49,320 nt of DNA from Clostridia bacterium (GTDB taxonomy: Bacteria; Bacillota; Clostridia; Lutisporales; Lutisporaceae). The stretch covers positions 1 through 49,320 of the forward strand of contig JARBUB010000001.1 of NCBI GenBank assembly GCA_029239905.1, written 5' to 3'. Of the stretch, positions 7,939 through 31,334 are shown piece by piece. A model generated the notes under the pieces. It was not told the DNA's origin and did no database searches. It worked only from the letters and a program-made list of their open reading frames with translations. Numbering within the stretch: position 1 is the first letter of the stretch; each line of letters starts with the position of its first letter. Position numbers and translations under genes: made by a program.

Positions 7939-7950
7939 GCTTACACCTCC

Positions 7951-8955: not shown

Positions 8956-8966
8956 TCTAGCACCCC

Positions 8967-10460: not shown

Positions 10461-10541
10461 ACTTATTCCTCCTGAAATTCGACTATATGCAATTAGCCAA
10501 ATCTATTCTCATGGTGATCCCTGTGCCTTGATTTATGTAAG

Positions 10542-10585
10542 AGAGTATCACCGTATACGTATAGCCCCTAATGCGGTGACACTCT
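10542..10585 (-). other. Intercistronic hairpin between solute-binding protein and ATPase genes
   Basis: AGAGTATCACCG/CGGTGACACTCT (11/12 paired) in a 162-nt intergenic gap. Confidence 0.55.
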
Positions 10586-10622
10586 GCATTTCTATGTACT
10601 GACCGACTTACTTTAATGCTGC

Positions 10623-11714: not shown

Positions 11715-11754
11715 ATTTTTCCCTCCCAAGAATGAATACTTTACCTTTTTTCTG

Positions 11755-12201
11755 CTACATAACACCCTTTTGTAAAATCACACAACCATAAGGTTGTCTT
11801 TCCCCTGTTGATACAGTTACAAATGCTGTCTTTGCTTTTTCATAAAAATCGTATCTTTCTATAAAGCCAACACATTCTTTCCCCTTATGCTCATTTTTCT
11901 CAACTGCTGCAATAAAATCATCCCATACAGCTGGCCTTTCCATTTTTTCTTTTAATTCTGGTGACATCTCCATAATGAGAACAGGATGCTCTGTATATTC
12001 TACATCCAGCGGCATCAACTGTAAGACTGCGTCCAGCATTTCTGCTGCTGAGATTCCATCTGCATTAATAGTGATACCATTTTGGGCCATTGATACAGCT
12101 GGATAAAAATCATCTGCAATAACAATTAAATCTCCATGTCCCATATCTGCCAGAGCCTTAAGCAAATCCGGATTAATAACTTTTGGAATTCCTTTTAACA
12201 T
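11755..12201 (-). CDS. RbsD/FucU family sugar mutarotase
   Basis: 'MLKGIPKVINPDLLKALADMGHGDLIVIADDFYPA' and C-terminal 'ERQPYGCVILQKGV'. Confidence 0.92.
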   Translation of the reverse strand: MLKGIPKVINPDLLKALADMGHGDLIVIADDFYPAVSMAQNGITINADGISAAEMLDAVLQLMPLDVEYTEHPVLIMEMSPELKEKMERPAVWDDFIAAVEKNEHKGKECVGFIERYDFYEKAKTAFVTVSTGERQPYGCVILQKGVM

Positions 12202-12257
12202 TTTCTTGCACCTCCTTTCCTTTATTCGCTTATAGTTAAGAAATGTATTATGATTTC

Positions 12258-13187
12258 TTAAGCGCTGTGTTCTTTTAAAAACTGATCAATTTCTTCTCGT
12301 GTCGGCATAGCCGGTGTTGTCCCAAGGCGCTGAACCGATAATGCTGCGAGTGCACTGGCAAACCTTGCAGCTTCCCATACATCTTTGCCCTCTGCTAAAG
12401 CTGCTAAAAATCCTCCATTAAACGCGTCTCCTGCCCCAGTTGTATCAATGGCATCTACTTTAAAAGAAGGAACAATTTCTTCTCTTCCATTTGAAGAAAT
12501 GAAGACTCCTCTAGAGCCTAGTGTGATAACTACTTCTTTAACCCCTTTATCAAAAAATACCTTTGCTGCTTTCTTTGCGGCTTCTAAGCTGTCTACACAA
12601 ATGCCCGTCAGTGCCTCAGCCTCAACCTCATTTGGAGTTACAATATCAACCTTAGCTAATAAAGAATCTTCAATCGGCTGAACAGGTGCTGTATTAAGAA
12701 CAACCTTTACACCATTTTCATGGGCAAAGTTAATAACTCTTTCATTAGCATCTGCATTTACTTCAAACTGCAATAGAACATACTTAGATGCCTTGATAAC
12801 ATCTTCTACGGTCTTGATATCCTCTTTCGTAATGGTATTACATGACCCCGATACAACTACGATTTCATTCTGACTTGTATTTTCATCTACGATAATAAGG
12901 GCAATACCTGTCCCTTCTGTTTCGTTATAAAACAAATGACCAGTATCCATCCCCAGCTCTTTCATAGTGTCTAATGCTACATTTGCAAAAGTATCCCTTC
13001 CAAGCTTCGTAATCATTGTTACATCTGCTCCAGCCTTATGTGCTGCTACCGCTTGGTTAAAACCTTTGCCTCCTGCTCCCATTTTGAAAATAGAACCTTT
13101 TACGGTCTCTCCTGGCACAGGCAGGTGCGGTGACCTGCCCATCAAATCTACAACAAAACTGCCAAACACAGTAATTTTACTGTTCAT
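12258..13187 (-). CDS. Ribokinase / PfkB family sugar kinase (ribokinase or deoxyribokinase)
   Basis: 'GSFVVDLMGRSPHLPVPGETVKGS...GGKGFNQAVAAHKAGA', 'DTTGAGDAFNGGFLAALAEG'. Confidence 0.9.
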   Translation of the reverse strand: MNSKITVFGSFVVDLMGRSPHLPVPGETVKGSIFKMGAGGKGFNQAVAAHKAGADVTMITKLGRDTFANVALDTMKELGMDTGHLFYNETEGTGIALIIVDENTSQNEIVVVSGSCNTITKEDIKTVEDVIKASKYVLLQFEVNADANERVINFAHENGVKVVLNTAPVQPIEDSLLAKVDIVTPNEVEAEALTGICVDSLEAAKKAAKVFFDKGVKEVVITLGSRGVFISSNGREEIVPSFKVDAIDTTGAGDAFNGGFLAALAEGKDVWEAARFASALAALSVQRLGTTPAMPTREEIDQFLKEHSA

Positions 13188-13198
13188 CCTTTTTCCCC

Positions 13199-13771
13199 CT
13201 ACTCAATGTTCCTATGCCTTGCTTCCATCTGATCATGTGATAAGTTCATCTCTTTTTCCAGCATCATGACAATAATGTCAAACAGCAGAAATAAGTGCTG
13301 CTCGAATAAATTCCCCATCGGCTGTGTTGAATTCACAACTCTTTTATCAGTCCCTTTGTAAACACATGCAGGAACAAATACAGTTATATCTGCCATAGAA
13401 GGCGTACGTTCCGATGGTGCCCCAGTAACTACTGCAATCTCTGTTCCTGTTAAATGGGCCCGATCAAGCAGATAGTCTATGTGACCAATCTTTCCGGAAC
13501 CATTTACTGCAATAAATAAATCTCCTGCCCTCATGCCTGGTGCCGTATCATCCCACAGCCAGTGTGTTTCTTTACCTAGATGCATTACCCTCATTGCAAA
13601 GCTTCTTGCTGCAATCCCTTCACGTCCTGCACCTACTATAAAAACTCTTTTGGCATTCATAATAGCTGTCATCAACTTTTCTATGTCTTCAAGATTTTGA
13701 GCCTCAAAAACTTGGCTGTGCTCCTCTATTACATTTCGATATAACACCTCATAGACTGCCTTAATGTCCAT
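13199..13771 (-). CDS. SIS-domain protein, 6-phospho-3-hexuloisomerase (HxlB)-like
   Basis: 'RVFIVGAGREGIAARSFAMRVMHLG' and C-terminal 'MEARHRNIE' resembling the HxlB RHANLE end. Confidence 0.8.
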   Translation of the reverse strand: MDIKAVYEVLYRNVIEEHSQVFEAQNLEDIEKLMTAIMNAKRVFIVGAGREGIAARSFAMRVMHLGKETHWLWDDTAPGMRAGDLFIAVNGSGKIGHIDYLLDRAHLTGTEIAVVTGAPSERTPSMADITVFVPACVYKGTDKRVVNSTQPMGNLFEQHLFLLFDIIVMMLEKEMNLSHDQMEARHRNIE

Positions 13772-13792
13772 ATCTATAATCTCCTTAATTAT

Positions 13793-14428
13793 CTAAATGA
13801 GTGCTACGCCATTACCAGCGCCGATTCTGTCAGCTCCTGCGTGAACTAAAGTCTTAACATCTTCTGGCGTACGGACCCCTCCGCTAGCCTTTACCTTCGC
13901 CCTATCTCCAACTGTCTTTCTCATTAATGCAACATCTTCGGGTGTCGCTCCGCCTGTGCTAAATCCAGTAGATGTCTTAACAAATTCTGCCCCAGCCTCT
14001 ACTGAGAGCTCACAGGCTTTCACTTTTTCTTCATCTGTCAAAAGGCATGTTTCGATAATGACTTTAGTAATAGCAGGTTTAGATGCATCTACAACTGCTT
14101 TAATATCTTCAAAAACTAAGTTGTAGTTTTTATCTTTCATAGCACCAATATTGATAACCATGTCAACCTCCTCGGCCCCTCTTTTTACTGCCTCTGATGC
14201 TTCAAATGCCTTTACCGAAGTCAGCATAGCCCCTAGCGGAAATCCTACTACACAACAGGTCTTAACATCGGTTCCTTTTAGCCTTTGTGATACTAGTGGA
14301 ACATGACAAGTGTTAACACAGACAGATGCAAATCCATGTTGTTTAGCCTCTTCACAGTATTGTTTGATTGTTTCAGCTGTAGCATCTGCTTTTAACACAG
14401 TGTGATCAATTATTTTTGCAACATTCAT
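13793..14428 (-). CDS. deoC: Deoxyribose-phosphate aldolase
   Basis: '[11 protein letters not shown]', '[15 protein letters not shown]', '[22 protein letters not shown]', 'VKASGGVRT'. Confidence 0.95.
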
Positions 14429-14486
14429 TTCCTTCTCCTCTTTTCTCTTCCATTATTTTTTGTAATTAAAACTCATGTTTATCGTT

Positions 14487-14508
14487 AATATGTAAGCGCT
14501 TACATATT
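14487..14508. promoter_or_regulatory. LacI-family operator 1 upstream of deoC operon
   Basis: Perfect 22-bp palindrome AATATGTAAGCGCTTACATATT. Confidence 0.85.
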
Positions 14509-14516
14509 AGGCTAAA

Positions 14517-14538
14517 AATGTGTAAGCGCTTACACATT
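14517..14538. promoter_or_regulatory. LacI-family operator 2 upstream of deoC operon
   Basis: Perfect 22-bp palindrome AATGTGTAAGCGCTTACACATT, offset exactly 30 bp from operator 1. Confidence 0.85.
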
Positions 14539-14566
14539 AGGTAAAATAAATAGCTGCCATAAGCTG

Positions 14567-15580
14567 CTATCTATCTAATCTTTCTGATCCTCGTAGTATC
14601 ACCTGGTACGGTACATTAAACCTTGTATGCTTCTTTTCTCCTTTATTCTTCAGACGCTCCAGCATTAGACGCATTGCTTCTCGCCCTTGCTGTTTTGCAT
14701 CTCTGTCAATTACTGAGATTTTATAATCAATTAACTTCAAAATTTCAATATCATCAAATCCAATTAAGGAAATATCTTTTCCTAACTTGATCTTTTTCTC
14801 TGTCAAATATTTTAAACATCCTAATGTTGTCATATTGCTACACGCAAATATGGCTGTAGGGGGATCAGATAAATTTAAAAGCACTTCTGTTCCCTTATAG
14901 GAATGCATAATCTTGAAGTTTCCTGGCACCATATATTCACAGCTCAAATCAATATTCGCTTCTTCTAACGCCTTCTTATACCCTATAAGACGTTCTTTAC
15001 CTGGTTTTGAAGTTTCTGGGCCTTTGATGATAGCAATCTTCCTATGACCTGCTTTAATCAGTTCATTAACCCCATCATAGGCGCCTGCTATATTATCAAC
15101 AAATACCCCTTCAAAGATTGCGTCATCAATATCACGGTCAACCAAAACAACTGGAATGCCACTCTTTTCTAAATGAATCAGCCGTGCTTTTGTTATCGGG
15201 TCCACTTCTGAAATAGGAGTGATAATAACTCCGCTCAAACGTTGTCCTTGAACGGTATCCAAAAAAGCGTGTTCTATGCCGAGTGTTTCATTACTTCCTA
15301 AGAAATGTATGTTGTAATGATTCTGCTCGGCCACTTCACTGATGCCGCTGATGATACTAGAAAAAAATTCATTTTCGATATCTGGAATAATCACACCTAT
15401 ACTTAAAGTATCCCTTGTACTTAAACTTCTTGCAACAGCATTCGGTACATACTGATGTTTTTCTATGACCTCAAATATTTTTCGTCTGGTCTCTTCCTTT
15501 ACATATCCTGAATTATTTATTGCTCTTGACACTGTTGCATTAGAAACTCCAATTAGCTTAGCAATATCATCAATATTCAT
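14567..15580 (-). CDS. LacI family transcriptional regulator
   Basis: 'MNIDDIAKLIGVSNATVSRAINNSGYVKEETRRKI' LacI HTH plus periplasmic-binding-like sensor. Confidence 0.94.
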   Translation of the reverse strand: MNIDDIAKLIGVSNATVSRAINNSGYVKEETRRKIFEVIEKHQYVPNAVARSLSTRDTLSIGVIIPDIENEFFSSIISGISEVAEQNHYNIHFLGSNETLGIEHAFLDTVQGQRLSGVIITPISEVDPITKARLIHLEKSGIPVVLVDRDIDDAIFEGVFVDNIAGAYDGVNELIKAGHRKIAIIKGPETSKPGKERLIGYKKALEEANIDLSCEYMVPGNFKIMHSYKGTEVLLNLSDPPTAIFACSNMTTLGCLKYLTEKKIKLGKDISLIGFDDIEILKLIDYKISVIDRDAKQQGREAMRLMLERLKNKGEKKHTRFNVPYQVILRGSERLDR

Positions 15581-16436: not shown

Positions 16437-17693
16437 TTATTGTTTATTAAAATCCCTCACTGCTTCAATCATCGCAATGACATTTTCGACTGGTGTTTTT
16501 GCCACAATATTATGTATGGTGTTAAAGACAAATCCTCCATCTTTAGAGAAGATTTCGCATACCTCCAGTACTTCTTTTCTAACTTCTTCTGGTGTGCCAA
16601 ACGGTAATGTTCTTTGAGTATTGACACCTGCTCCCCAGAATGTAATATCTTTGCCAAACTGGCTTTTTAATGTTCTTGGATCCATGTCCTTTGCAGTCCA
16701 CTGCACAGGATTTATGATGTCAAATCCTGCATCAATAAAGTCTGGTATTAGCGGCATAATGGAGCCGCAAGTATGTTTAAAGGTCTTCCAATGGGTATTT
16801 TTATGAATCCATCCATTAATACGCTTATAGTAAGGCGCATAAAGATTTCTAAATGTATCTGCTGAACAAAACGGCCCATTTTGAGTTCCAAAATCATTGC
16901 CACATATATAAGCTACATCAATGACATCTCCCGCCACCTGGTAAATCTTTTCTAAATTTCTTAAAGCAATATCCACTTGTTTATCAAAGATCTCATGCAG
17001 GTAATCCTGACGCATTGCTGTAGACATATACCACTCCTGAATATCTCTGATACCTTTTGGGTCTTTAAGCATAGGCCCAGGAACACAGGCAATATCTCCA
17101 ATAGCTGTACCTCCAAGATTAGCTCCTATATAATATTTAGAACCTCTGAATACTTCTGCCATTTTTTTATAATAGTTAAGATCTGACGAAGAGATGTCTC
17201 CAAATTCTTCTAGGTTATCTTCAGCATTAAGGTTATCATCATCAATATCTTTTTGTCTAATGATCGCATCAAAAAAGAAGCTTGACCTTGGCATTTTAGC
17301 AGCAGGCGGGAAGTTTTTGTCTCCTTCTGCATAAATATAAATATCATTTTCATCCTCTGTTGTTACAAACTTCTCTGCCACCAATACTTTTTGTCCCCAT
17401 GGTGTCATCCACTCTCTAAAATTTTCATTTTTAAAACCATACATCGTGTACTGGTTCCATAGGGCTGTTGTATCTATACCAGTTGCTTCTCTTAAGTCAT
17501 CATCTACAAGCCCTAGCATTTGGTAGGGTTCAAATACAGTAATGAGTTTCTTTTCGAGTCCATAATGTTCTCTTAATTTCTCAAGCACGCTGACGTGAAT
17601 GCCCGTTGTAGGGAAAGCTCCCATATCAAAAGGAACTGGCCCCGCTTTATGTTCAAGCGCCAATTTAATTTTGCTTTTAGAGTCCATAAGCAT
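16437..17693 (-). CDS. Uroporphyrinogen decarboxylase-family protein (methyltransferase-like), long form
   Basis: 'WKTFKHTCGSIMPLIPDFIDAGFDIINPVQW' HxCG motif; 'GGFVFNTIHNIVAKTPVENVIAMIEAV' C-terminus. Confidence 0.85.
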   Translation of the reverse strand: MLMDSKSKIKLALEHKAGPVPFDMGAFPTTGIHVSVLEKLREHYGLEKKLITVFEPYQMLGLVDDDLREATGIDTTALWNQYTMYGFKNENFREWMTPWGQKVLVAEKFVTTEDENDIYIYAEGDKNFPPAAKMPRSSFFFDAIIRQKDIDDDNLNAEDNLEEFGDISSSDLNYYKKMAEVFRGSKYYIGANLGGTAIGDIACVPGPMLKDPKGIRDIQEWYMSTAMRQDYLHEIFDKQVDIALRNLEKIYQVAGDVIDVAYICGNDFGTQNGPFCSADTFRNLYAPYYKRINGWIHKNTHWKTFKHTCGSIMPLIPDFIDAGFDIINPVQWTAKDMDPRTLKSQFGKDITFWGAGVNTQRTLPFGTPEEVRKEVLEVCEIFSKDGGFVFNTIHNIVAKTPVENVIAMIEAVRDFNKQ

Positions 17694-17789: not shown

Positions 17790-18692
17790 TTAAGCTCCAA
17801 CTGTTTTTAATTTATCGTCTAAGAACTTTTTAGCTCTTGGTATATCTTCTTCATCTAAATGCTCAATAATAATTGGGATATTAGGATGATTTTCGGATAA
17901 CTTTTTAAGGTATAAATCGTAGTTTAATACACCAAGACCCGCTGCTGGCAGCTCTACTGCTCCTGCTCCTCTGAAGCTGTTATGTTCTGCTGCATCAATA
18001 CTTGCATGTTTTTCACCTGTATCCACTGCACGTTTGCAGTCTTTTGCATGAGCAACTTTGATTTTGTCATCTAATACATTAAAGATTTTTTCAATTTCAG
18101 CGTCTACATGATCAATATTACCATCCCCAAAATAGTTTGTAGGATCTAAGAGAAGTCCAATTCCTGGGTGATTTACCTCACGGAACAGGCGTGCTACTTG
18201 ATCAACTGAACCAATGATGTTATTTACATAGTTTTCAACTAGGAAAACTGCATTGTTTTCATAAGCATATTGTGCTAACTCAAGCGCAACTGCTTTAAAC
18301 TCCTGATAAGCTTCTTCCGTAGCATTTTTAGGATCATAGAGCCAGTCACTTTCTACATTGTATGTACCTGTTTCACTTATTACATAAGGTGTACCGAAAT
18401 CTCTTGCATATTTCAAGATTTCTTTAACATGTGCTATGTTTTTTTCTCTAATAACTGGATCTGGATGTACTAGGTTCGTATAAGCTGAGATACTTACGAT
18501 ATTAATGTTGGCATCTCTAAATGCATCTCTTACCATATTAGCTTTTTCTTTTGTGATATTACCTTGTGATAAGTCAACATCTTTAAAGTCTAAGTCTAGC
18601 TGCACACAGCTCATACCGTGTTCTTTTGCTTTTGCAATAACCTCTGCTAATGTGTAAGGATAATATCCTGTAAAAATACCTACTGAAATCAT
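17790..18692 (-). CDS. Sugar phosphate isomerase/epimerase (xylose isomerase-like TIM barrel, AP_endonuc_2)
   Basis: 'MISVGIFTGYYPYTLAEVIAKAKEHGMSCVQLDLDF', 'LVENYVNNIIGSVDQ', 'GLLLDPTNYF'; start refined from 18737 to internal ATG. Confidence 0.88.
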   Translation of the reverse strand: MISVGIFTGYYPYTLAEVIAKAKEHGMSCVQLDLDFKDVDLSQGNITKEKANMVRDAFRDANINIVSISAYTNLVHPDPVIREKNIAHVKEILKYARDFGTPYVISETGTYNVESDWLYDPKNATEEAYQEFKAVALELAQYAYENNAVFLVENYVNNIIGSVDQVARLFREVNHPGIGLLLDPTNYFGDGNIDHVDAEIEKIFNVLDDKIKVAHAKDCKRAVDTGEKHASIDAAEHNSFRGAGAVELPAAGLGVLNYDLYLKKLSENHPNIPIIIEHLDEEDIPRAKKFLDDKLKTVGA

Positions 18693-18771
18693 GAAAATGC
18701 CCCCTCTAATATAATTTATTATATATAATAACTTCAATTACTTATTGAATGATCTAATTAAGTCATCACTC

Positions 18772-19875
18772 TTATATGGTAATATCAATTTCTGAGAACT
18801 TTACTGTTCTTTCTTCTTTAATAGATAAGTAGCAGGCATCAATAGCTGCCATCGTATGTAAATTGTCTTCCCCGCTGATTTCTGGCTGAGTATCTGTTTC
18901 TACTGCACGTAATAACTGTGCCATAGTTCCTCTAAAGGCATCTGGGAACCATACAGAATCCCACTCAGGACGGATCCACTGATTTGGGAACTGCTTGCAG
19001 GTAAACTCCATCTTACTTGGCGTCCTTTCATCATAGCACCAACCAATATATCCCTGAGCCATACCATCTAAGCCCTCTACGCGCCATTTAATATAGATAT
19101 CTTTTTCTACACCCTCTCCCTGCCATGCCCATACATCATCTAAGCTGGTAGCCATAACTTCATCAGCGTACTGGAAGGTATACTGACTAATACCGTCAAT
19201 ATGATTGAATTTAGTTCTTGGGTCATGTCTGGTCACTGCTGTGATCTTCTCTGGATCGCCAAACAAATAGCGGAAAGTATCTACATGGTGAATACCCATA
19301 TTTAAGATTTCGATATGATCATATCTTTCTAGGAACGTCTGCCAATGAGGAATAGCTCTCATATCGATCGTTGCGAGTACCGGCTTACCTAAATAGCCTT
19401 TCTCTAAAACTGTTTTTAAAGCCCTGATGGATTGGTCATATCTCATATTGGAATTAACGCCTAATTTAACACCTGCTTCTTTACATAGCTTTACAATATC
19501 TTTTGCTTCTTCTAAGTTCATAGCTAATGGTTTTTGGCATAAGATTCCTTTAATATAAGGTTTTGTTACAGCATAGCGTACTACTTCAAGCTGTTTATCT
19601 GGTGGAATGGCTATATCAAGAATCTCAACATTTTCATCATCAATTAATTCTTTCCAACTGGAATAAACATGAGGAATGTTATACTGCTTAGCTACATTCT
19701 CGCTTTCTTCAAGGCTAAGTGATGTAATGGCATACGGATTAAACCCAACATCTTCATAAGCCTTTAAATGGCAGTTTCTCACAATTGCTCCAGCTCCAAT
19801 AACTCCAATGCGAAAATCCATGCGTTTTGGGAGTTCTGGGTTAATACGATAATCAATATTTTTTACTTCTTCCAT
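18772..19875 (-). CDS. Gfo/Idh/MocA family oxidoreductase
   Basis: 'RIGVIGAGAIVRNCHLKAYEDVG', 'KGILCQKPLAMNLEEAKDIV'; start refined from 19899 to internal ATG. Confidence 0.92.
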   Translation of the reverse strand: MEEVKNIDYRINPELPKRMDFRIGVIGAGAIVRNCHLKAYEDVGFNPYAITSLSLEESENVAKQYNIPHVYSSWKELIDDENVEILDIAIPPDKQLEVVRYAVTKPYIKGILCQKPLAMNLEEAKDIVKLCKEAGVKLGVNSNMRYDQSIRALKTVLEKGYLGKPVLATIDMRAIPHWQTFLERYDHIEILNMGIHHVDTFRYLFGDPEKITAVTRHDPRTKFNHIDGISQYTFQYADEVMATSLDDVWAWQGEGVEKDIYIKWRVEGLDGMAQGYIGWCYDERTPSKMEFTCKQFPNQWIRPEWDSVWFPDAFRGTMAQLLRAVETDTQPEISGEDNLHTMAAIDACYLSIKEERTVKFSEIDITI

Positions 19876-19934
19876 AATCCACCTTCTCCTTTTTATCATA
19901 TATATAGTGATTAATATAACTTACTAATCATTTT

Positions 19935-20501
19935 TTATTTAGCTAAAGCTTCACCAACTGCATTTGCTTTTTCTGATTTTTCTTCTAGAGGAATCATCTT
20001 ATCAATCCAGACTTTTCCTGCAATTGCGATCCAGCCAAATATAAGACCTAACGCACAGTAGAATAATTCATAAACAGCCGCTGAAGCATAAGTTGCTTCC
20101 GGTACATAATTCATGATTCCAAAAAATGCACCGCATCCAATGAAAATGGCTGGTATATAATCTAATATTTTGATTCTCTCGAAACACATAACAGGTATAA
20201 CTGGTATAAAAATAGCAACAGGTACACACCAGAAAGCTCCTAAAAATGATAAAGCCCCGGCTAATTCAAATATGATAATTCCTGTTGTAATTCCAACTGC
20301 ATAAGCTATGAACCCTTTTAAACCACCCTTTGGTGTACATCCCCCAAGAAAATACACAGCCCATGCTTGAAAAGCAACCCATGCCCCAGCATGACCAATT
20401 GGCATTTTGGTCCCCGTAAACTGATCAATAACTTGAATAATAAGTGCTAGTGCTGCAATCCAAGTAGCCCAAACTAAAAGGTTCTTATTTTTTGCTTTCA
20501 T
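19935..20501 (-). CDS. DUF1097-like integral membrane protein
   Basis: 188 aa with several hydrophobic helices; 'GAWVAFQAWAVYFLGGCTPKGGLKGFIAYAVGI'. Confidence 0.7.
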   Translation of the reverse strand: MKAKNKNLLVWATWIAALALIIQVIDQFTGTKMPIGHAGAWVAFQAWAVYFLGGCTPKGGLKGFIAYAVGITTGIIIFELAGALSFLGAFWCVPVAIFIPVIPVMCFERIKILDYIPAIFIGCGAFFGIMNYVPEATYASAAVYELFYCALGLIFGWIAIAGKVWIDKMIPLEEKSEKANAVGEALAK

Positions 20502-20536: not shown

Positions 20537-20555
20537 GTTTCATGAAACGTTTCAT
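20537..20555. promoter_or_regulatory. LacI-type operator: overlapping palindromes upstream of the DUF1097/Gfo-Idh/isomerase/UroD operon
   Basis: GTTTCATGAAACGTTTCAT contains GTTTCATGAAAC and ATGAAACGTTTCAT, both perfect palindromes. Confidence 0.75.
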
Positions 20556-20640
20556 ATAACTTCATTTTTATATTATCACTAATTTTCAGATATTTCAAGT
20601 AGTTTTTTTGTATTTTTGTACAAAAAATAATAGATTTTTT

Positions 20641-22866
20641 CTATCCTTCTTTTCTCAAGTTATTCAGTTTGCGCTCTATATTATCTAGAGTGCTCTTATT
20701 ATCCTGCTCGCCCGTTAACGCTTTCCCGATTTCCCATCCGATTATCTCATCATATAGCTTAATATTAAGGCCAAGAATCTTTGTGTTATTAAATATCTCT
20801 CTTTTTTTGCTTCTAGAATAACTCTTTAAGATATCTCTTTTCCATGGATACAATCCATCTAGTTCCTTATCTACATAAAAGGATTTACGGTTTGAAATCC
20901 CAGAAAGAACAGCGAAAGGATTAGCAATTCTCCTTCCACAAGCCCACATCATATAGTCTACGGCTATCTTTTTTATTTTACTGTTATGGTTAATGCCTAA
21001 ACTCCATCCACCTAGAACTGGACACTGCCCAGGTATGATACAGCTGCCTACATTTCCAGCAACTTTAGACTCCATTGAATCGTTAATGCCAAAAGCATAG
21101 GAGTCATATAATACGGTCATTGCAGTATTTCCGTTTTTAAAATCAGAAGCAATACTGCTCCAATTCTCATGAGATTCTCCCATATTCATATATTGATAGC
21201 TCTTCTTATAGCTATCTAGTGCTATATGGGCATAGTCACTGTTTATAGTTATCCTATTGTCTGTAATGACTGATCCTCCATAAGCCCATAAACGATTGAG
21301 AAACTCTATGCTGTTGTATAAGTTTCCCTTATTAATGAGTGAAGTTCCATACTGCATGGGTGAATTAGCATTAAATCTTTTCGTAAAAAACTCTGCTACT
21401 AAATTAAACTCATCCCATGTTCTAGGAAGCATAAGTTCCATTCCATATTTTCTTTGAAATTGTATTTTTAAAGTTATATCTTCAAACAAGTCTTTTTGAT
21501 AAAAAAGCATTTGTGTGCCTGTCATAAAAGGCAGCCCATATAGCTTACCATCATAAACACCGTGATTTTCCAGTGCTCCGTTAATAATATCCGAAAAATA
21601 CTCTTCATTTTCACTCTGCAGCTCAGTTATTTCTTCAAGCCCTGACATCTTTACCAAATCTTCAAGCCAAACTAAATCAAACATAAAAATATCAACGGAC
21701 GCATCTTTTCCATTTACACATTCTACAATATAGTTCCATAGCTCATGGTACTCAAGTGCAATAAAATTCACTTTAATACCCTTTTCCTTTTCATATACTT
21801 TTGTAAGCATTGGCAGCACTTTTGCCACTTCCGCATCTAGGATAGCTACATTGATCGTACTGGAATGCTCAGAGATACAGTCTTTTCCATCGTAAAATGG
21901 CGTATTGGCAACCTTAAATACAGCATCAACTGTTTTGATTTGGGTATATTCCTGCCCCCCCATTAAAGCTGCTTCTAAAATCTGTTTTGCTGCTTTTGTT
22001 CCAATCTCATAATAAGAAACATTAATAACACCATCAAACGAATTATCATCTTCCATCCAGTTTTCTGCTTTAATACAAATAAGTGAAAGGGGGCGGTTAG
22101 CACTTTCTCTTAATATCTCAATGGCTTTTTTTACCCCCTGTGCCATCATATAACTGCTTACAATAAGTACTGTAATCTCCGAGTTTTCATAAAGAAGTTC
22201 ATAAGCTGCCTTAAATCCACTTTCACTGCTATAATCTCCAACAATCTTATAGAGTATCTCCTCCTCATCAGTATGCTGAAGCACTTCTAATTCTTGCTCA
22301 AACATAATCCCATTTTCCATAATAAAACCGATCTTCTCATGATTATTGCTTCTGCACCATAGTAGGCATTTCTGAAGAGCATCTTTATAATTTATGGTTA
22401 CAACATTCATGTTATTCTTCATATTAATTTTCTTATCCATGAAGACTACTGGAATGTTATTTTCATTTAATTGATAGAGCCAATCTTTGTTTTGAACTGC
22501 AGTACTTACAATAACCCCGTCCACGCGCTGCTGAACAAAATACTCTATATGCTTTTTTTCCAGAATTGCATTGTTGTCAGTTGTTTTAATAAGGATGCTG
22601 TAGCCGCTGGTTCGAAGTTCTTTTTCAATTGCAGCAATCATAACCTGAATACGCGGCTCTTCTATGTTATTTACAATAATACCTATGATGTTAGTCTGCG
22701 TATTTTTTAAGCTTCTTGCATTCGCATCTGGGCGAAATCCTAACTCTTTAATTGCAGTTTCTACTTTATCTATTAATTCTTGGTTATTAGTCTTCCCATT
22801 GATTACATTAGAAACACTCCCAATAGAAACACCTGCTGCAGCCGCCACATCTTTTATTGTAGCCAT
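20641..22866 (-). CDS. LacI-type regulator (HTH + periplasmic-binding-like sensor) fused to a C-terminal ABC solute-binding protein family 1-like domain
   Basis: 'MATIKDVAAAAGVSIGSVSNVINGKTNNQELIDKVETAIKELGFRPDANARSLK' HTH; SBP-like half 'INVAILDAEVAKVLPMLTKVYEKEKGIKVNFIALEYHELWNYIVECVNGKDASVDIFMFDLVWLEDL...YDGKLYGLPFMTGTQMLFYQKDLFED...LPRTWDEFNLVAEFF'; single uninterrupted 741-aa ORF with no signal peptide. Confidence 0.9.
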   Translation of the reverse strand: MATIKDVAAAAGVSIGSVSNVINGKTNNQELIDKVETAIKELGFRPDANARSLKNTQTNIIGIIVNNIEEPRIQVMIAAIEKELRTSGYSILIKTTDNNAILEKKHIEYFVQQRVDGVIVSTAVQNKDWLYQLNENNIPVVFMDKKINMKNNMNVVTINYKDALQKCLLWCRSNNHEKIGFIMENGIMFEQELEVLQHTDEEEILYKIVGDYSSESGFKAAYELLYENSEITVLIVSSYMMAQGVKKAIEILRESANRPLSLICIKAENWMEDDNSFDGVINVSYYEIGTKAAKQILEAALMGGQEYTQIKTVDAVFKVANTPFYDGKDCISEHSSTINVAILDAEVAKVLPMLTKVYEKEKGIKVNFIALEYHELWNYIVECVNGKDASVDIFMFDLVWLEDLVKMSGLEEITELQSENEEYFSDIINGALENHGVYDGKLYGLPFMTGTQMLFYQKDLFEDITLKIQFQRKYGMELMLPRTWDEFNLVAEFFTKRFNANSPMQYGTSLINKGNLYNSIEFLNRLWAYGGSVITDNRITINSDYAHIALDSYKKSYQYMNMGESHENWSSIASDFKNGNTAMTVLYDSYAFGINDSMESKVAGNVGSCIIPGQCPVLGGWSLGINHNSKIKKIAVDYMMWACGRRIANPFAVLSGISNRKSFYVDKELDGLYPWKRDILKSYSRSKKREIFNNTKILGLNIKLYDEIIGWEIGKALTGEQDNKSTLDNIERKLNNLRKEG

Positions 22867-22897: not shown

Positions 22898-23884
22898 TCA
22901 GATCGTTTCCCACTGCCCTGTTCGTCCTGATTCAAATAACTGATCTATTATACGCATGTTCAAATAACTATCTTGAAGAGAGATAGGAACTTCTGTATCT
23001 TCCCGAACGGCTTTAGCAAAGTTATTAAAGAGTTCTCCATATTGATTGGTTTTTGGGAATTCTACAATCCTTTCTCCAAGTCCTGTAACCACTTTAACTT
23101 GAGCTGGGATATCGTAAAAGTCATTGAAAGGTATAGTAACTTCTAACATCCCCCCCGAACCATAAACTTTTACCTCTTGTACTGGATAAGAACTGGTTCC
23201 TACCGTAAACAGCGTTCTTGCTTTTCCATAATCAAGCATGCCCGATGAAAGAATATCTGTACCTGTAGCCTCTGAGTAATGGACTATGCCCATTACCTTT
23301 TGAGGTTCTCTGCCCATAATCCATCTGCTTGAAGATATTGCATAGCAACCGATATCCATCAATGCACCTCCACCGTACTCTTTAATGTTCCTGATGTTCT
23401 TTGGATCATTATTACTATAAGCAAACATTGTATGGACAGCATGTATTTCGCCAATACCGTTTACCTTCATAAGCTCGCGGACCATTTGCCATTTTGGATG
23501 GAAACGATACATAAAGGCTTCCATGACCTTAATGTTTTTCCCTTGAGCATACGACATTAAAGTTTTTGTCTCCTCAGCAGTTAATGTTAATGGTTTTTCA
23601 CATAACACATGTTTACCTGCATCAATTGATTTCTTTATCCACTCCAAATGCATATGATTTGGTAACGGGATATAAACAGCTTCAATCTCTGTATCCTCCA
23701 GTAACGCTTCATAACTGCCATAGGCCTTAGGAATCTCCCACTCTTTAGCTGCCTGTTCAGCTTTTTTAAGATTTCTTGAGGCTAAAGCAATAACTTCTAC
23801 ACTTTTTGATTGAGTAAAAGGAAGCATCATGCGAGTTAGCAAATGCCCCGATACTCCTAATACTCCTATTTTAACTCTTTTCAT
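22898..23884 (-). CDS. Gfo/Idh/MocA family oxidoreductase (dihydrodiol/xylose dehydrogenase-like)
   Basis: 'KIGVLGVSGHLLTRMMLPFTQS', 'GKHVLCEKPLTLTAEETKTLM', 'MEAFMYRFHPKWQMVREL'. Confidence 0.92.
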   Translation of the reverse strand: MKRVKIGVLGVSGHLLTRMMLPFTQSKSVEVIALASRNLKKAEQAAKEWEIPKAYGSYEALLEDTEIEAVYIPLPNHMHLEWIKKSIDAGKHVLCEKPLTLTAEETKTLMSYAQGKNIKVMEAFMYRFHPKWQMVRELMKVNGIGEIHAVHTMFAYSNNDPKNIRNIKEYGGGALMDIGCYAISSSRWIMGREPQKVMGIVHYSEATGTDILSSGMLDYGKARTLFTVGTSSYPVQEVKVYGSGGMLEVTIPFNDFYDIPAQVKVVTGLGERIVEFPKTNQYGELFNNFAKAVREDTEVPISLQDSYLNMRIIDQLFESGRTGQWETI

Positions 23885-25264: not shown

Positions 25265-25660
25265 TTATACTAGACTTTTTACTGTCTCTAACTCTTCCCT
25301 ACTCAAAGGATATATGTCGCTGTTATCCATACTTGTAGAGGAATCTTCGATAAGTACCATTTTTGTATCTTTGCAGGTAATAGTATTATGCCAAAGTGTT
25401 GCTGGAATATTATAAACCTTGTTTGGCTCCATGCTTACTTGGCCAAATTCTAATCCATCCTCTGTCTCGTTCGCAAAGATCAGCGTGCATGAACCTGACA
25501 GCAGTACAAATAACTCATCCGTCAAATTATGACGTTCTAGGCAGTCAATTCCAGTAATATCGTTTGCTGGCTTCCAATTTTTAATACCCACAGTCCATTT
25601 CTCATTTTCAAACACACGATTCATGCCTTCACCGTTAAATGCATAGGTCTCTATTTTCAT
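25265..25660 (-). CDS. Small cupin-fold protein
   Basis: 131 aa; 'ERHNLTDELFVLLSGSCTLIF...NKVYNIPATLWHNTI' cupin-like motifs. Confidence 0.7.
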   Translation of the reverse strand: MKIETYAFNGEGMNRVFENEKWTVGIKNWKPANDITGIDCLERHNLTDELFVLLSGSCTLIFANETEDGLEFGQVSMEPNKVYNIPATLWHNTITCKDTKMVLIEDSSTSMDNSDIYPLSREELETVKSLV

Positions 25661-25661
25661 T

Positions 25662-26597
25662 TTATATCTCCTTACTTAAAAGTGACTTACAGTGATTGAT
25701 AATGTTTTCAGCATTAAGCCCATAAGCGTTAAATAAATCCTGAGGTTTGCCTGATTTACCAAACATGTCATTAACGCCAACTCTTGAGAACTTTACATCT
25801 GACTTGCCGGCAAGTATTTCTGCTACAGCAGATCCAAGTCCTCCAATAATAGAATGTTCTTCAGCTGTGACAATGGCCTTACACTTTGCTGCCATCTGAA
25901 GGACACATTCACTGTCAATAGGCTTAATGGTATGCATGTTCACAACAGCTGCATCTATACCATCTTTTTCAAGGACTCTAGCTGCCTGCATCGCCTCTGG
26001 TATCATCAGTCCCGCTGCAATAATACATACATCCTTTCCATCCCTTATAATATTTGCTTTTCCAGGGATAAACGGCGTATCTTCTGTAGTAATATCCTCA
26101 CAGATCGGGCGCGCTACACGGATATAGACTGGGCCATTAATCTCACTTGCTGCCCTTACTGCTTTTTTCATTTCAGCTGGATCACAGGGAACAAAGATCG
26201 TCATACCAGGTAAAACACGCATTAGTGCAATGTCTTCTATAGACTGATGGCTTCCTCCGTCCTCTCCCACACAAAGACCTGAATGGGATAAGCATAGCTT
26301 AACATTTGCATTCACATAGCTGATTGAGTTGCGTATTTGCTCATAAGCACGGCCAGCACCAAATAGTGCAAAGGTGCTTACAAATGGAATGAGTCCAGAA
26401 TGTGAGAATCCTGCTGCTGCACACATCATATTTGTCTCTGCTATGCCAAAATTATAGAAACGATCCGGGTACGCTTCTTTAAATATACTTGTCATCGTTG
26501 CATGAGCTAAATCAGCATCCAAAACTACAATTTTATCATTTTCTGCTCCTAAATCTCTTAAAGCTTCTCCATAAGCAACTCTTAGTGATTGACCCAT
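25662..26597 (-). CDS. Transketolase C-terminal subunit (split transketolase)
   Basis: 'FYNFGIAETNMMCAAAGFSHSGLIPFVSTFALF', 'GLCVGEDGGSHQSIEDIALMRVLPGMTI'. Confidence 0.94.
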   Translation of the reverse strand: MGQSLRVAYGEALRDLGAENDKIVVLDADLAHATMTSIFKEAYPDRFYNFGIAETNMMCAAAGFSHSGLIPFVSTFALFGAGRAYEQIRNSISYVNANVKLCLSHSGLCVGEDGGSHQSIEDIALMRVLPGMTIFVPCDPAEMKKAVRAASEINGPVYIRVARPICEDITTEDTPFIPGKANIIRDGKDVCIIAAGLMIPEAMQAARVLEKDGIDAAVVNMHTIKPIDSECVLQMAAKCKAIVTAEEHSIIGGLGSAVAEILAGKSDVKFSRVGVNDMFGKSGKPQDLFNAYGLNAENIINHCKSLLSKEI

Positions 26598-27409
26598 TAC
26601 AATTCTACCCCCAATTCTGCTACTGCTCTTTCATACTCCTCTTTGCTAGGTGCCTTTCCATGCCATCCAAACTGGTCTGACATAAAAGATACACCATGTC
26701 CTTTATGGGTTTCACAGCAGATAAACTTAGGCTTTCCGCTGATAGGGGCCTTAATTGCATAGGTGATTGCATCGATATCATGGCCATCTACCTTATAACA
26801 TTCAAACCCAAATGCTTTATATTTCTCACAAATATCTCCAAGGCTCATAACTTCGTCATTGGAACCATCAATCTGAAGCCCATTATGATCAAGCATTACA
26901 ATAAGATTATCCAGTTTGTAGTGGGCTGCTGCCATCGCCGCCTCCCATACAAGGCCTTCTTGAATTTCGCCATCTCCAACGATGGCATAAATTTGATAAT
27001 CTTCTTTTTTGTGCTTTGCCGCCAAGGCCATTCCTACAGCAACAGATATGCCCTGTCCTAAGGAACCCGTATTAACATCTACCCCTGGCGTTTTATTCAT
27101 ATCTGGATGCCCTTGAAGATGGCTGTCAATTTGACGAAGGTGCCAAAGGTCTTCTCTTGGAAAGAATCCTAGATCGGCTAAGATTGCATAAAGCGTGGGG
27201 CTTGCGTGGCCTTTACTAAGTACAATGCGGTCACGGGTTTCCATCTTAGGGTTCTTAGGATCAATATTTGCTGTTTTATAATAGATGGCCATCAGCATTT
27301 CTACGCAGGATAAAGATCCTCCTGGATGACCAGACTGACAGGTATAGAGCATTTTTAAAATATCTGCTCTAATCTGTTTAGCTTTCTCTTCTAGACTAAT
27401 AGTGTTCAT
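26597..27409 (-). CDS. Transketolase N-terminal subunit (split transketolase)
   Basis: 'CQSGHPGGSLSCVEMLMAIYY', 'GSLGQGISVAVGMALAAK', ThDP motif 'GDGEIQEGLVWEAAMAAAHYKLDNLIVMLDHN'. Confidence 0.95.
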   Translation of the reverse strand: MNTISLEEKAKQIRADILKMLYTCQSGHPGGSLSCVEMLMAIYYKTANIDPKNPKMETRDRIVLSKGHASPTLYAILADLGFFPREDLWHLRQIDSHLQGHPDMNKTPGVDVNTGSLGQGISVAVGMALAAKHKKEDYQIYAIVGDGEIQEGLVWEAAMAAAHYKLDNLIVMLDHNGLQIDGSNDEVMSLGDICEKYKAFGFECYKVDGHDIDAITYAIKAPISGKPKFICCETHKGHGVSFMSDQFGWHGKAPSKEEYERAVAELGVEL

Positions 27410-27469
27410 TTAAAGTACCATTCCTTTCGATGTCTTTTATTAAAAATAAGATAAAGTTATTTTCTTTGT

Positions 27470-28309
27470 TTAACCTTTTTCTGCTCCTGCCGTTAAACCT
27501 TCTACGAGTCTCCTTTGTGCAAAGAAGAACATCACACATACTGGAATGATTGTTATAATTCCCCCTGCAGTTAATAGATCCCACTGAACGCCGAGCTGTC
27601 CTATCAGATTCTTAAGTGCTACGGGTATCGTTCTATTGCTTTCGTTTGTAAACATAACAGCAAAGGTATACTCATTCCAAGCCGTCATAAAGATGTATAC
27701 CCCAGTAGCAATAAGGCAAGGCACTAGAACTGGGAGAACGATTTTAATAAAAGCATAAAATCTATTGGCTCCATCTATTAAAGCAGCCTCTTCTAAAGAC
27801 TGTGGCAGGTCGTTCATATAGCCATTTAAAAGCCACACAGAAAACGGAATTGTAAAAGTGGTATAGGCAAGAACTAGTGCAAGAGGTGTATATAAAATAC
27901 TTAGGCTTCGCATGATGGTGTATAAAGGTATTAATAACAAAACCGTAGGAAACATGTTGTTGGTTAAAAAAATAATCATAAGCAGCTTTCTGCCTTTAAA
28001 ACGGTATCTTGAGAAAGCATAGGCTGCCAGCATAGAAACTAATAGTGATACAACAGTTGATGATGCAGCAACTACAAAGCTATTTGTCATAGACTTTAAG
28101 AAGTTAAACTCTCCAAACAGCTTAATATAAGATGCAAACGTTGCATGCTGAGGCCAGTATGTGACTACGCTTCCATAAAGTTCACTCTCTGGTTTTATCG
28201 AGGTTATAAATGTCCAGTAAAACGGAAAGAGCAAAAACAGCATGAGTGCGCTTAAGGGCAGATAAATACTAAAAATTCTTCTTGCCATTGTATCTTTATT
28301 CCTACTCAT
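27470..28309 (-). CDS. CUT1 carbohydrate ABC transporter permease (MalG-like)
   Basis: EAA motif 'EEAALIDGANRFYAFIKIVLPVLVPCL'. Confidence 0.93.
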   Translation of the reverse strand: MSRNKDTMARRIFSIYLPLSALMLFLLFPFYWTFITSIKPESELYGSVVTYWPQHATFASYIKLFGEFNFLKSMTNSFVVAASSTVVSLLVSMLAAYAFSRYRFKGRKLLMIIFLTNNMFPTVLLLIPLYTIMRSLSILYTPLALVLAYTTFTIPFSVWLLNGYMNDLPQSLEEAALIDGANRFYAFIKIVLPVLVPCLIATGVYIFMTAWNEYTFAVMFTNESNRTIPVALKNLIGQLGVQWDLLTAGGIITIIPVCVMFFFAQRRLVEGLTAGAEKG

Positions 28310-29184
28310 ACCTTCTCCTCCTTAAATCTTTTCCTTAGATAAGGGACAGCTGCCAAAGAAAGCATTAGGGTCAATATAAGAGATATTGCTGCCGCATACC
28401 CCATATTAAGGACATTTGCTTTATTGAATATATAAATGCTAAGTGTCTGTGTAGAATAAGCAGGTCCACCTTCTGTCATATTCATAATGAGGTCTACCGA
28501 GTTGGCAACCCAAATAATTCGCAGCAACAGCGTAATGAAAATAGTATTCTTAATTGATGGCACAGTAATCTTAAACAGCTTCTGAAATCTCGATGCCCCA
28601 TCTACGTCTGCAGCCTCATACATTTCTTGAGATACTCCCTGAAGCCCAGCTAGAATCATAAGAGCAAAAAACGGTATTCCCTGCCAGACAATCGTTGCAA
28701 TAACGCTTGGAAATGCCGTATTCGTCTGTGCTAAAAAAGGAACCTTTTCATCAATAATATGTAACCTTATTAAAATATCATTTAAAACACCATAGTTTCC
28801 GTCATAAATCCATCTCCACATAAGACCAATGAGCACTCCAGGGGTGCACCAAGGAATCAAGCTGACTGCTCTCACAATGCCGCGGCCACTAAACTTTTGA
28901 TTTAAAATAAGAGCTAATATGAATCCAAACAAGAACTGCAGCCCTACTCCAAATCCAACCCAAAGCAGTGTGCGTACAAAAGCATCCCAAAACAAGGGGT
29001 CATGAAAGATTTCAATAAAGTTTCCGATCCCTATAAATTTCAAGCTATTTGGCCTTCTTAAATCATAATTTTGAAAACTCATTAATATTGCCTTAGCTAC
29101 TGGCACAAACACTACCCCTAGCATGATTAAAAAAGCAGGTGCTACCAAGAAATATGGCGTTATATTGATCTTTCTGCTTCGCAT
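28306..29184 (-). CDS. CUT1 carbohydrate ABC transporter permease (MalF-like)
   Basis: EAA motif 'YEAADVDGASRFQKLFKITVPSIKNT'. Confidence 0.93.
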   Translation of the reverse strand: MRSRKINITPYFLVAPAFLIMLGVVFVPVAKAILMSFQNYDLRRPNSLKFIGIGNFIEIFHDPLFWDAFVRTLLWVGFGVGLQFLFGFILALILNQKFSGRGIVRAVSLIPWCTPGVLIGLMWRWIYDGNYGVLNDILIRLHIIDEKVPFLAQTNTAFPSVIATIVWQGIPFFALMILAGLQGVSQEMYEAADVDGASRFQKLFKITVPSIKNTIFITLLLRIIWVANSVDLIMNMTEGGPAYSTQTLSIYIFNKANVLNMGYAAAISLILTLMLSLAAVPYLRKRFKEEKV

Positions 29185-29305
29185 AAGTCCCTCCTTCTAC
29201 AATAATTGTAAATAAAAATATTTATCTTTTGATTTTATCTAGCAGCATGCCAGCCAGCCCTTTTTCACAAAGCTGACCAGCTGATGCCAGACTTAGAATC
29301 TATCT

Positions 29306-30640
29306 TTATTTGTAGAGTTCTTTTTGCAGGGTTTCCATAGCCTCTTTTGCAGTAATCTCTCCTGAGAGAGCCTGTGAAATAGTGTTAGGCCAAATTGTGC
29401 TTACCCATTCTGTTGTTGTGTCAAGAATAGGGAGAATACCTGCGTAAGAAACCCCTTCTATAGATGCTTTCATAAATTTATTATCTTGGAAAACTGGCAT
29501 AGCCTGAACACGTTTGCTTACTGGAACGTTACCTGTTGTTTCACACCAAACTTGCTGCCCCTTTCCTGCTGCCATATAGGATACAAACTCAAAGGCAGCC
29601 TCTTTGTCTTTACATTTTTCAAAAATAACATTTTCTGTATCTCCCATAGATGTCCATTGGCCGTCTCCTTTAGGGAATGGGAAAGCTGCTACATCCTCAC
29701 CAAATGTTTCTACCATCCCTGCTGATGAACCTGTATGATGGATAGTCATAGCTGTTCTTCCTGATTTGAAGTTTGCAATAATTTCATTAAAACCATCTGC
29801 TGGTGCTGTTGGAGGTACATAACCCTTTTTGTATAGATTCATAAAGTCTTCCATGCCTTTTACAGCCTGATCAGTAGTAAAATCCTCAAAACTGCCTCCT
29901 CTGCCATGAATGAAACTTCCCCATGGTTCCTGTCCGCCCTTTGCTCCTCTCATACCAAAGCCGTATACATCTATTTTCCCGTCGCCATCAGTATCTCTGG
30001 TTAACTTTTCGCAAGCCGTCAAAAACTCTTCGTATGTTTTTGGTACTTCAATCCCTACCTCTTTAAACATAGATGGACGGTAATATACATATAAAACTTG
30101 AGTATTCCATGGCATGACGTAGGTTTTGTCTGAGCCTCCTGCCTGCTTCATAATGTTATAAAGGTTTGCGTCGATATCGTCTTTATCAGCCCATTTCTCA
30201 ATATAGCCATCTAATTCTGCCAGTAAATTATTTGCTGTAAATAAAGGAGTAGCTGTAAGCTTCCAAGTAGCTATATCAGGCCCCCCTCCGCCCATTGCAG
30301 CTGTAAATAGATTTTGGCTGTAAGCTCCGCCGTCCCAAGGCTGTTCTTCAGCTTTTATCGTGATGCCTGATTTATTTGTTTCATTGAATTCTTTTACAAT
30401 CTCCTGCATCTTATTTGAGTAATCTGAGTTGTCTGCCCAGTACCAATATGTAAGTGTGGTCTCTTTTGAAGCGGTTTCCTCTTCACTTTTTGCATCTTTA
30501 GTATCTGCGCTGTTATTCTCTGCAGGTGCATTTGCTGTCTCCTTAGGCGTGGCACTTTCTTCTTTAGTGCTGCCTCCGCATCCTGTTAAAGAAGAAATAC
30601 TAAGAGCTAATACTGCTAATACCGCTAATAATTTTTTCAT
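29306..30640 (-). CDS. CUT1 ABC transporter substrate-binding lipoprotein
   Basis: Lipobox 'LSISSLTGCGGS'; SBP_bac_1-like sequence. Confidence 0.93.
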   Translation of the reverse strand: MKKLLAVLAVLALSISSLTGCGGSTKEESATPKETANAPAENNSADTKDAKSEEETASKETTLTYWYWADNSDYSNKMQEIVKEFNETNKSGITIKAEEQPWDGGAYSQNLFTAAMGGGGPDIATWKLTATPLFTANNLLAELDGYIEKWADKDDIDANLYNIMKQAGGSDKTYVMPWNTQVLYVYYRPSMFKEVGIEVPKTYEEFLTACEKLTRDTDGDGKIDVYGFGMRGAKGGQEPWGSFIHGRGGSFEDFTTDQAVKGMEDFMNLYKKGYVPPTAPADGFNEIIANFKSGRTAMTIHHTGSSAGMVETFGEDVAAFPFPKGDGQWTSMGDTENVIFEKCKDKEAAFEFVSYMAAGKGQQVWCETTGNVPVSKRVQAMPVFQDNKFMKASIEGVSYAGILPILDTTTEWVSTIWPNTISQALSGEITAKEAMETLQKELYK

Positions 30641-31334
30641 GTAATCCCTCCATTATTTTTATATCATCCAGTGTTTGCCGGATATGTTTTTCTACTTCAT
30701 ATCTTGCCTTCATTACATCCCGTGACCTTATAGCATAAAAAATATTAGTATGACTTTTAAGTGCCCTCTCGAAACTGCCTTTTGAGTGTACTGTTTCTGG
30801 ATAGGCCTTTCTGATGGATTCGCAAATGATCGGAATAACCTTGTGCAGTACATCATTATGAGTACACTGAGCTACCGCAGAATGAAACTCAACATCCAGC
30901 AAAGTAAACTCTTCAGAGTGGTCCGTCGATTTGTTCATCTTATTAATAATTTCTTCTAGTATTTCAATGTCTTTTTCCTCTGCCCTCAGCACTGCTATAA
31001 GTGCGATCTCTGGTTCAATTAAGAGCCTCGCCTCTAAGAGCGCCTCAAGAAGTCCAGGCTGATTAATAAAGTCAAGCCCAAGAGGATCTTTCGTCATGCC
31101 CGTATGAGAACTTACGAAAGTACCCTTTCCCCGTCTTATCTCAACAATGTTTTCAGCCTTTAACAGATTCATAGCTTCTCTAATTGTTGAGCGGCTCATT
31201 CCAAAGGTTTCAGTCAATTCACTTTCACTAGGCAGCCTTGTACCAGGCTGCATATTCGATTTAATGATGCTTTTCTTCACCTCTGTTGCTACCATCATCG
31301 CCAGTCCTCTTGTGTCTGATTGTTTCCCTTTCAT
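30600..31334 (-). CDS. GntR/FadR (FCD domain) transcriptional regulator
   Basis: 'QPGTRLPSESELTETFGMSRSTIREAMNLLKAENIVEIRRGKGTFV'; overlaps the SBP start by 41 bp. Confidence 0.93.
   Translation of the reverse strand: MKGKQSDTRGLAMMVATEVKKSIIKSNMQPGTRLPSESELTETFGMSRSTIREAMNLLKAENIVEIRRGKGTFVSSHTGMTKDPLGLDFINQPGLLEALLEARLLIEPEIALIAVLRAEEKDIEILEEIINKMNKSTDHSEEFTLLDVEFHSAVAQCTHNDVLHKVIPIICESIRKAYPETVHSKGSFERALKSHTNIFYAIRSRDVMKARYEVEKHIRQTLDDIKIMEGLHEKIISGISSISS

Follow-up and report, generated by a model that had tools for sequence, protein, structure and literature searches.

LacI proteins are the classic example of how a binding-protein fold became the sensor of a repressor. In the window analysed here (positions 1 to 49,320 of contig JARBUB010000001.1 of a Clostridia bacterium, 49,320 nucleotides), one gene carries such a LacI-type core and continues beyond it into about 400 further residues of the SBP_bac_1/8 type of solute-binding protein (SBP). 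The question is which of these two binding folds senses a ligand, and what the regulator controls.

Domain architecture of the fusion protein

The earlier note on this DNA had described one uninterrupted ORF of 741 amino acids at 20641-22866, and this was confirmed. The fusion gene (20641..22866) consists of 741 codons and lies on the minus strand, which that note had omitted. The ORF, Pfam and AlphaFold define three parts. The LacI-type helix-turn-helix (HTH) covers residues 1-47 (22726..22866, minus). Its PF00356 match spans residues 3-47 (E 2e-10) and scores above the curated cut-off, and the HTH is conserved in the fused family. The LacI-type core, with a type I periplasmic-binding fold, covers residues 59-320 (21907..22692, minus). 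It is delimited by Pfam, Foldseek and a residue table, with Peripla_BP_1/4 at residues 60-299 and Peripla_BP_1 above its cut-off. Finally, the SBP domain, of type II fold, is the proposed sensor and covers residues 336-741 (20644..21861, minus). Besides its pLDDT and Foldseek support, it matches SBP_bac_8 at residues 356-653 (E 3e-25) and SBP_bac_1 at residues 345-641 (E 4e-23).

The profile search thus assigned LacI and Peripla_BP to the N-terminal half and SBP_bac_8/SBP_bac_1 to the C-terminal half. The SBP-like part, previously placed from about residue 350, starts at about residue 336-345. Neither the SgrR HTH profile nor SBP_bac_5 matched the fusion protein in Pfam. The hydropathy analysis found no signal peptide, lipobox or membrane segment in the fusion protein, which begins with the HTH. 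The highest 19-residue hydropathy (1.23) lies inside the HTH, bearing out the earlier remark that signal peptide and lipobox are missing.

The AlphaFold model of the whole chain has a mean pLDDT of 85.3, and most of the SBP part exceeds 90. With Foldseek, the SBP half matched MalE3 and sulfoquinovose- and alpha-glycoside-binding proteins (target-normalised TM 0.81-0.86 for the best closed-form matches). The structure prediction proposed in the earlier note therefore gave an SBP fold for the C-terminal half. The N-terminal half, modelled separately, matched PurR, CcpA, RbsR and LacI. Its TM was 0.75-0.79 against core-only targets and 0.6-0.7 for the whole chain against DNA-bound structures, the lower values arising because the HTH is placed differently. 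Likewise, a sequence search of solved structures returned CcpA and PurR for the N-terminal half. For the C-terminal half, it returned the Thermus alpha-glycoside-binding protein, a trehalose/maltose-binding protein and MalE3. Profiles, predicted structures and Foldseek concur, and the LacI plus SBP architecture is confirmed.

Distribution and origin of the fused family

The fused family comprises at least 28 full-length homologues from Bacillota, Spirochaetota, Enterobacteriaceae and Rhizobium. A scan of species genomes, whose counts are lower bounds, found homologues, among the matches listed, in Bacillus methanolicus, Paenibacillus, Blautia, Christensenella, Treponema, another Spirochaetaceae and Klebsiella grimontii. 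Homologues of the same length occupy 11 loci in 9 of the 391 genomes of the class (Clostridia), and one genome of the window's own family also has a homologue. Others are carried by a Rhizobium rhizoryzae plasmid and by E. coli plasmids. Among complete E. coli genomes, 46 of 5,426 present a copy, which is plasmid-borne in 44. Annotated homologues bear the label 'extracellular solute-binding protein'. Pfam matched LacI and SBP_bac_1 in all 26 aligned family members.

The survey across Firmicutes that had been proposed thus shows the fusion to be old and widespread, and to extend beyond Firmicutes. A family restricted to Firmicutes is ruled out by the members from Spirochaetota, Enterobacteriaceae and Rhizobium. 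The fusion was not found in other genomes of the window's own genus. Given this absence from sister genomes, its distribution is patchy, and it probably moves between lineages.

We built one tree for each half. The SBP-half tree contained 28 fused and 20 stand-alone proteins, and the LacI-half tree 28 fused and 35 stand-alone proteins. In each of them a branch with SH-aLRT 100 separates the fused proteins from the rest; both were quick searches with SH-aLRT support, without bootstrap and with limited outgroup sampling. Because the fused proteins form one clade in both half-trees, the sequences support a single origin in one ancient fusion. Repeated independent fusions are unneeded, since each half-tree yields one clade.

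A profile of the SBP half was also run on 245 genomes. Fused ORFs scored 391-565 bits and stand-alone SBPs at most 225, a gap partly expected from a profile built from fused members. Across this wide gap, no close stand-alone version of the SBP half was found in the 245 genomes. The ten nearest stand-alone SBPs begin with hydrophobic export-signal-like stretches or lipoboxes, as judged by eye. These signals fit the earlier suggestion that a transporter SBP was recaptured as a ligand sensor.

Proposed operator and neighbouring genes

The proposed operator ATGAAACGTTTCAT lies at 20542..20555 (minus). It is unique in the genome, and its position and sequence are conserved in relatives. The operator noted earlier at 20537-20555 is a real feature, the palindrome TGAAACGTTTCA at 20543-20554. 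This is the sole exact copy in the 3.04-Mb draft genome (343 contigs, 77% complete). The operator stands immediately downstream of a promoter-like TTGAAA-17-TAATAT (20570..20598, minus). Shuffled versions of the region contain no fewer promoter-like sites; what supports this one is the conserved promoter-operator layout.

An operator-like site just 3' of the -10 region, ahead of the cluster genes, is present in the window, in its three closest relatives among the matches listed (B. methanolicus, G234 and G091) and in Treponema. B. methanolicus has ATGAAACGTTTCAT before DeoC-PfkB-RbsD/FucU-GFO1-isomerase. G234 has ATGAAATGTTTCAT, spotted by eye, before GFO1-isomerase, and G091 has ATGAAACGATTCAT before a URO-D gene. 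In Treponema, ATGGAACGTTCCAT precedes GFO1-isomerase-URO-D.

We counted sites with at most two mismatches from TGRAACGTTYCA at 29 loci. The 23 kb flanking fusion genes held 30 such sites, and the other 467 kb held 23. This is an enrichment of about 26-fold, somewhat inflated by the refinement of the pattern on the same loci. The Markov control (300 shuffles) gave a mean of 0.9 and a maximum of 4. By this pattern, 20 of the 29 fusion loci present a site and 9 do not; the 12-base pattern misses variant sites, and G234 and some others need variant patterns.

LacI operators generally resemble one another. The other LacI gene of the window (14567-15580) could in principle use the operator; the link across genomes is to the fusion gene. 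In the Blautia branch (L025:5598, L026:7869, L028:10251), the palindrome beside the fusion gene is a variant operator, TTATAACGTTATAA, which could be matched against residue changes in the HTH. On the Rhizobium plasmid (L008:7612-11157), the fusion gene and a normal LacI gene are divergently oriented around a TGAAACGTTTCA palindrome, and each side of the pair has a CUT1 transporter.

Four genes on the minus strand follow the operator. The first encodes a DUF1097 membrane protein (19935..20501, PF06496). The other three, identified by Pfam and comparison, are linked to the fusion in relatives. They encode a Gfo/Idh/MocA oxidoreductase (GFO1; 18772..19899, 61-78% identity), an AP_endonuc_2 sugar isomerase/epimerase-like protein (17790..18737, 61-75%) and a URO-D/methyltransferase-like protein (16437..17693, 51-52%). 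In the same relatives, the fusion proteins have 26-41% identity, versus 61-78% for the GFO1 and isomerase proteins. Orthologues of GFO1 (E <= 1e-100) were found in 2 of the 391 genomes of the class, both adjoining a fusion gene. A second Gfo/Idh/MocA oxidoreductase gene (22898..23884, minus; ORF, Pfam) lies 31 bases upstream of the fusion gene in the same direction. It is probably co-transcribed with it. The neighbouring genes suggest sugar oxidation and isomerisation without pointing to a named pathway.

The region 6919-15580 (minus) of the window contains a CUT2-type ABC transporter, RbsD/FucU-like, PfkB, SIS-domain and DeoC-like genes, and the stand-alone LacI gene. In B. methanolicus, the homologues of DeoC, PfkB and RbsD/FucU share one operon with the Gfo/Idh and isomerase genes. 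For this reason, this cluster and the operator-linked genes may serve one pathway. In the region 25265-31334 (minus), a CUT1 ABC transporter accompanies a pair of genes for a split transketolase. There, a GntR-type gene (30600-31334) overlaps the start of an SBP gene (29306-30640) by about 40 bases.

Other branches of the family show different gene sets. In some, CUT2-type sugar transporters accompany the fusion, along with genes for a kinase or a transketolase. The Blautia branch has GDPD-like and MgtC genes there and an ABC transporter of the SBP_bac_6 type. A nucleoside-H+-symporter-like protein and a metallo-hydrolase are encoded next to the fusion in Klebsiella, E. coli and Paenibacillus, and MgtC is also beside it in Klebsiella and E. 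coli. These differences suggest that the branches differ in the ligands they bind. In E. coli and Klebsiella (L009:2030-7356, L032:4850-10175), the fusion is divergent from the hydrolase, which has a metallo-beta-lactamase fold, the symporter-like transporter and MgtC. In E. coli, plasmids carry most copies of this arrangement. MgtC also turns up in a Blautia branch, alongside a different transporter type.

The probable sensing module and comparison with known systems

To compare the modules, we took the positions conserved at 75% or more in stand-alone relatives and scored their retention in the fused proteins. Retention was 80% in the HTH and hinge, 35% in the LacI core and 64% in the SBP half. 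The effector Arg of R-x-x-G, three residues before the G, is present in 35 of 35 stand-alone proteins versus 0 of 28 fused ones; it corresponds to LacI R197 / PurR R196 in the established numbering. The Asp of GFDD, LacI D274 / PurR D275 in that numbering, is found in 94% of stand-alone versus 4% (about 1 of 28) of fused proteins. The LacI core of the fused proteins also stops short of the terminal R/S motif. Positions invariant at 90% or more in the fused family number 33 in the SBP half versus 2 in the LacI core. The LacI core has kept its fold and lost its canonical effector-binding residues.

The pocket of the SBP half is only partly conserved. Its R689 aligns with R356, a sugar-binding residue of the Thermus alpha-glycoside-binding protein, and 57% of fused members retain the stacking Trp, W621. 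The sugar-binding Asp118 of the Thermus protein aligns with G450 and is not conserved in the window protein. Near stand-alone SBPs seldom have R525 or W675, two family-specific invariants that are candidates for the pocket or for a contact with the core.

Because the LacI effector residues were lost while the SBP half kept its core far better, the SBP domain appears to have replaced the LacI sensor, with the LacI core left as a scaffold. Sensor replacement fits these data better than the addition of a second sensor. With moderate confidence, we propose a single-chain cytosolic repressor in which the SBP domain is the working sensor. Its most likely role would be to repress a sugar-catabolic cluster locally, with a cytosolic ligand as inducer. 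The LacI HTH would bind the CG-centred palindrome at the promoter of the DUF1097-Gfo/Idh-isomerase-URO-D cluster; we infer repression rather than activation. The LacI-type core, its own effector site lost, would serve mainly for dimerisation and as a hinge scaffold. The SBP domain would descend from a single capture of a secreted CUT1-type (type II) solute-binding protein. It would close on a cytosolic sugar-like ligand, and a signal running through the core would release the operator.

The earlier note had pictured a cytosolic regulator with two sensors, perhaps an AND gate. The cytosolic LacI-type regulator with an SBP module and no signal peptide stands. The second working sensor does not fare as well. 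An AND or OR gate would require a ligand for the LacI core as well as for the SBP domain, and both folds are indeed predicted intact, with a third core residue, D144, retained in the window protein. However, the effector Arg is absent from all 28 fused proteins and the Asp from 27, and just 10 LacI-core positions reach 70% identity across the family. We consider two working sensors unlikely.

The degenerate LacI core could still bind something else, for example a protein partner. CcpA is a LacI protein governed by such a partner, HPr-Ser46-P, and it ranks near the top of the matches of the N-terminal half, both in sequence and in fold. A core that senses a protein partner, joined to an SBP domain that senses a sugar, would combine carbon status with a specific inducer. 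Nevertheless, some lineages that have the family differ in their phosphotransferase control, and we hold this still less probable. The SBP domain might instead be a docking module tying the regulator to the cytosolic side of a transporter (compare MalT with MalK), as several relatives adjoin ABC transporters. This is very improbable. SBPs dock on the outer face of the permease, whereas the fused SBP lies in the cytosol. The transporters nearby are of unrelated types (CUT2, SBP_bac_6 type, nucleoside-H+ symporter) or missing from the immediate cluster. An assembly or annotation artefact joining two genes, conceivable in a fragmented draft (343 contigs, 77% complete), is refuted by the 28 full-length homologues, which include single-contig closed genomes, K. 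grimontii and E. coli plasmids.

If the SBP domain is the sensor and the LacI core its scaffold, the family may have a wider meaning. It would be an undescribed, widespread LacI branch in which the ancestral type I sensor became an allosteric adaptor, the captured type II SBP became the effector domain, and the branches were tuned to different substrates. We regard the chances of this broader view as evenly balanced. If true, it would be natural sensor swapping by stacking one binding-protein fold on another. Evolution seemingly recruited a binding protein a second time, adding it to the earlier one, whose sensing was silenced. How a new sensor comes to govern an allosteric scaffold that is already in place thus becomes testable, and the design of biosensors faces the same problem. 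Moreover, proteins labelled 'extracellular solute-binding protein', including those on E. coli plasmids, are probably cytosolic regulators.

With the LacI/GalR repressors (CcpA, PurR, RbsR, LacI), the fusion shares the HTH, the hinge and the type I periplasmic-binding core. A CG-centred palindromic operator by the promoter and a local sugar regulon, common in that family, are both predicted for it. In contrast with them, it adds a C-terminal type II SBP of about 400 amino acids, lacks the canonical effector Arg and Asp, and ends its core before the terminal R/S motif. By HTH and core, we place it in the LacI superfamily, from which it departs in architecture and effector site. A census of the LacI family from 2014 defined two domains and called the domain structure rigid, and such fusions are unmentioned there (PMC4052901). 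A word-matched search of open-access papers found no description of a LacI-SBP fusion, and the family is apparently undescribed so far.

The fusion also shares the complete fold and the same order of elements with CUT1-type SBPs (SBP_bac_1/8: MalE3, SmoF, Thermus alpha-glycoside-binding protein). Unlike them, it has no signal peptide, is joined to a DNA-binding protein and forms a clade separate from all sampled stand-alone SBPs. Captured SBPs also act as cytosolic sensors elsewhere. Btr (YbbB) of B. subtilis joins an AraC HTH to a siderophore SBP domain; its HTH and its SBP class both differ from those of the fusion.

In a survey of SBPs, the sensor domains of regulators were reported to match SBP profiles as well (PMC9602780). 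Two cytosolic transcription factors, SgrR of E. coli and DsvR of Vibrio, are composed of an HTH and SBP_bac_5 (PMC13060122). The fusion resembles them as a cytosolic transcription factor with a C-terminal SBP-type sensor, a likeness proposed here from sequence. However, its HTH and its SBP family are different, and SgrR and DsvR have no LacI core. By analogy, the fusion would work like SgrR and DsvR while standing outside their family.
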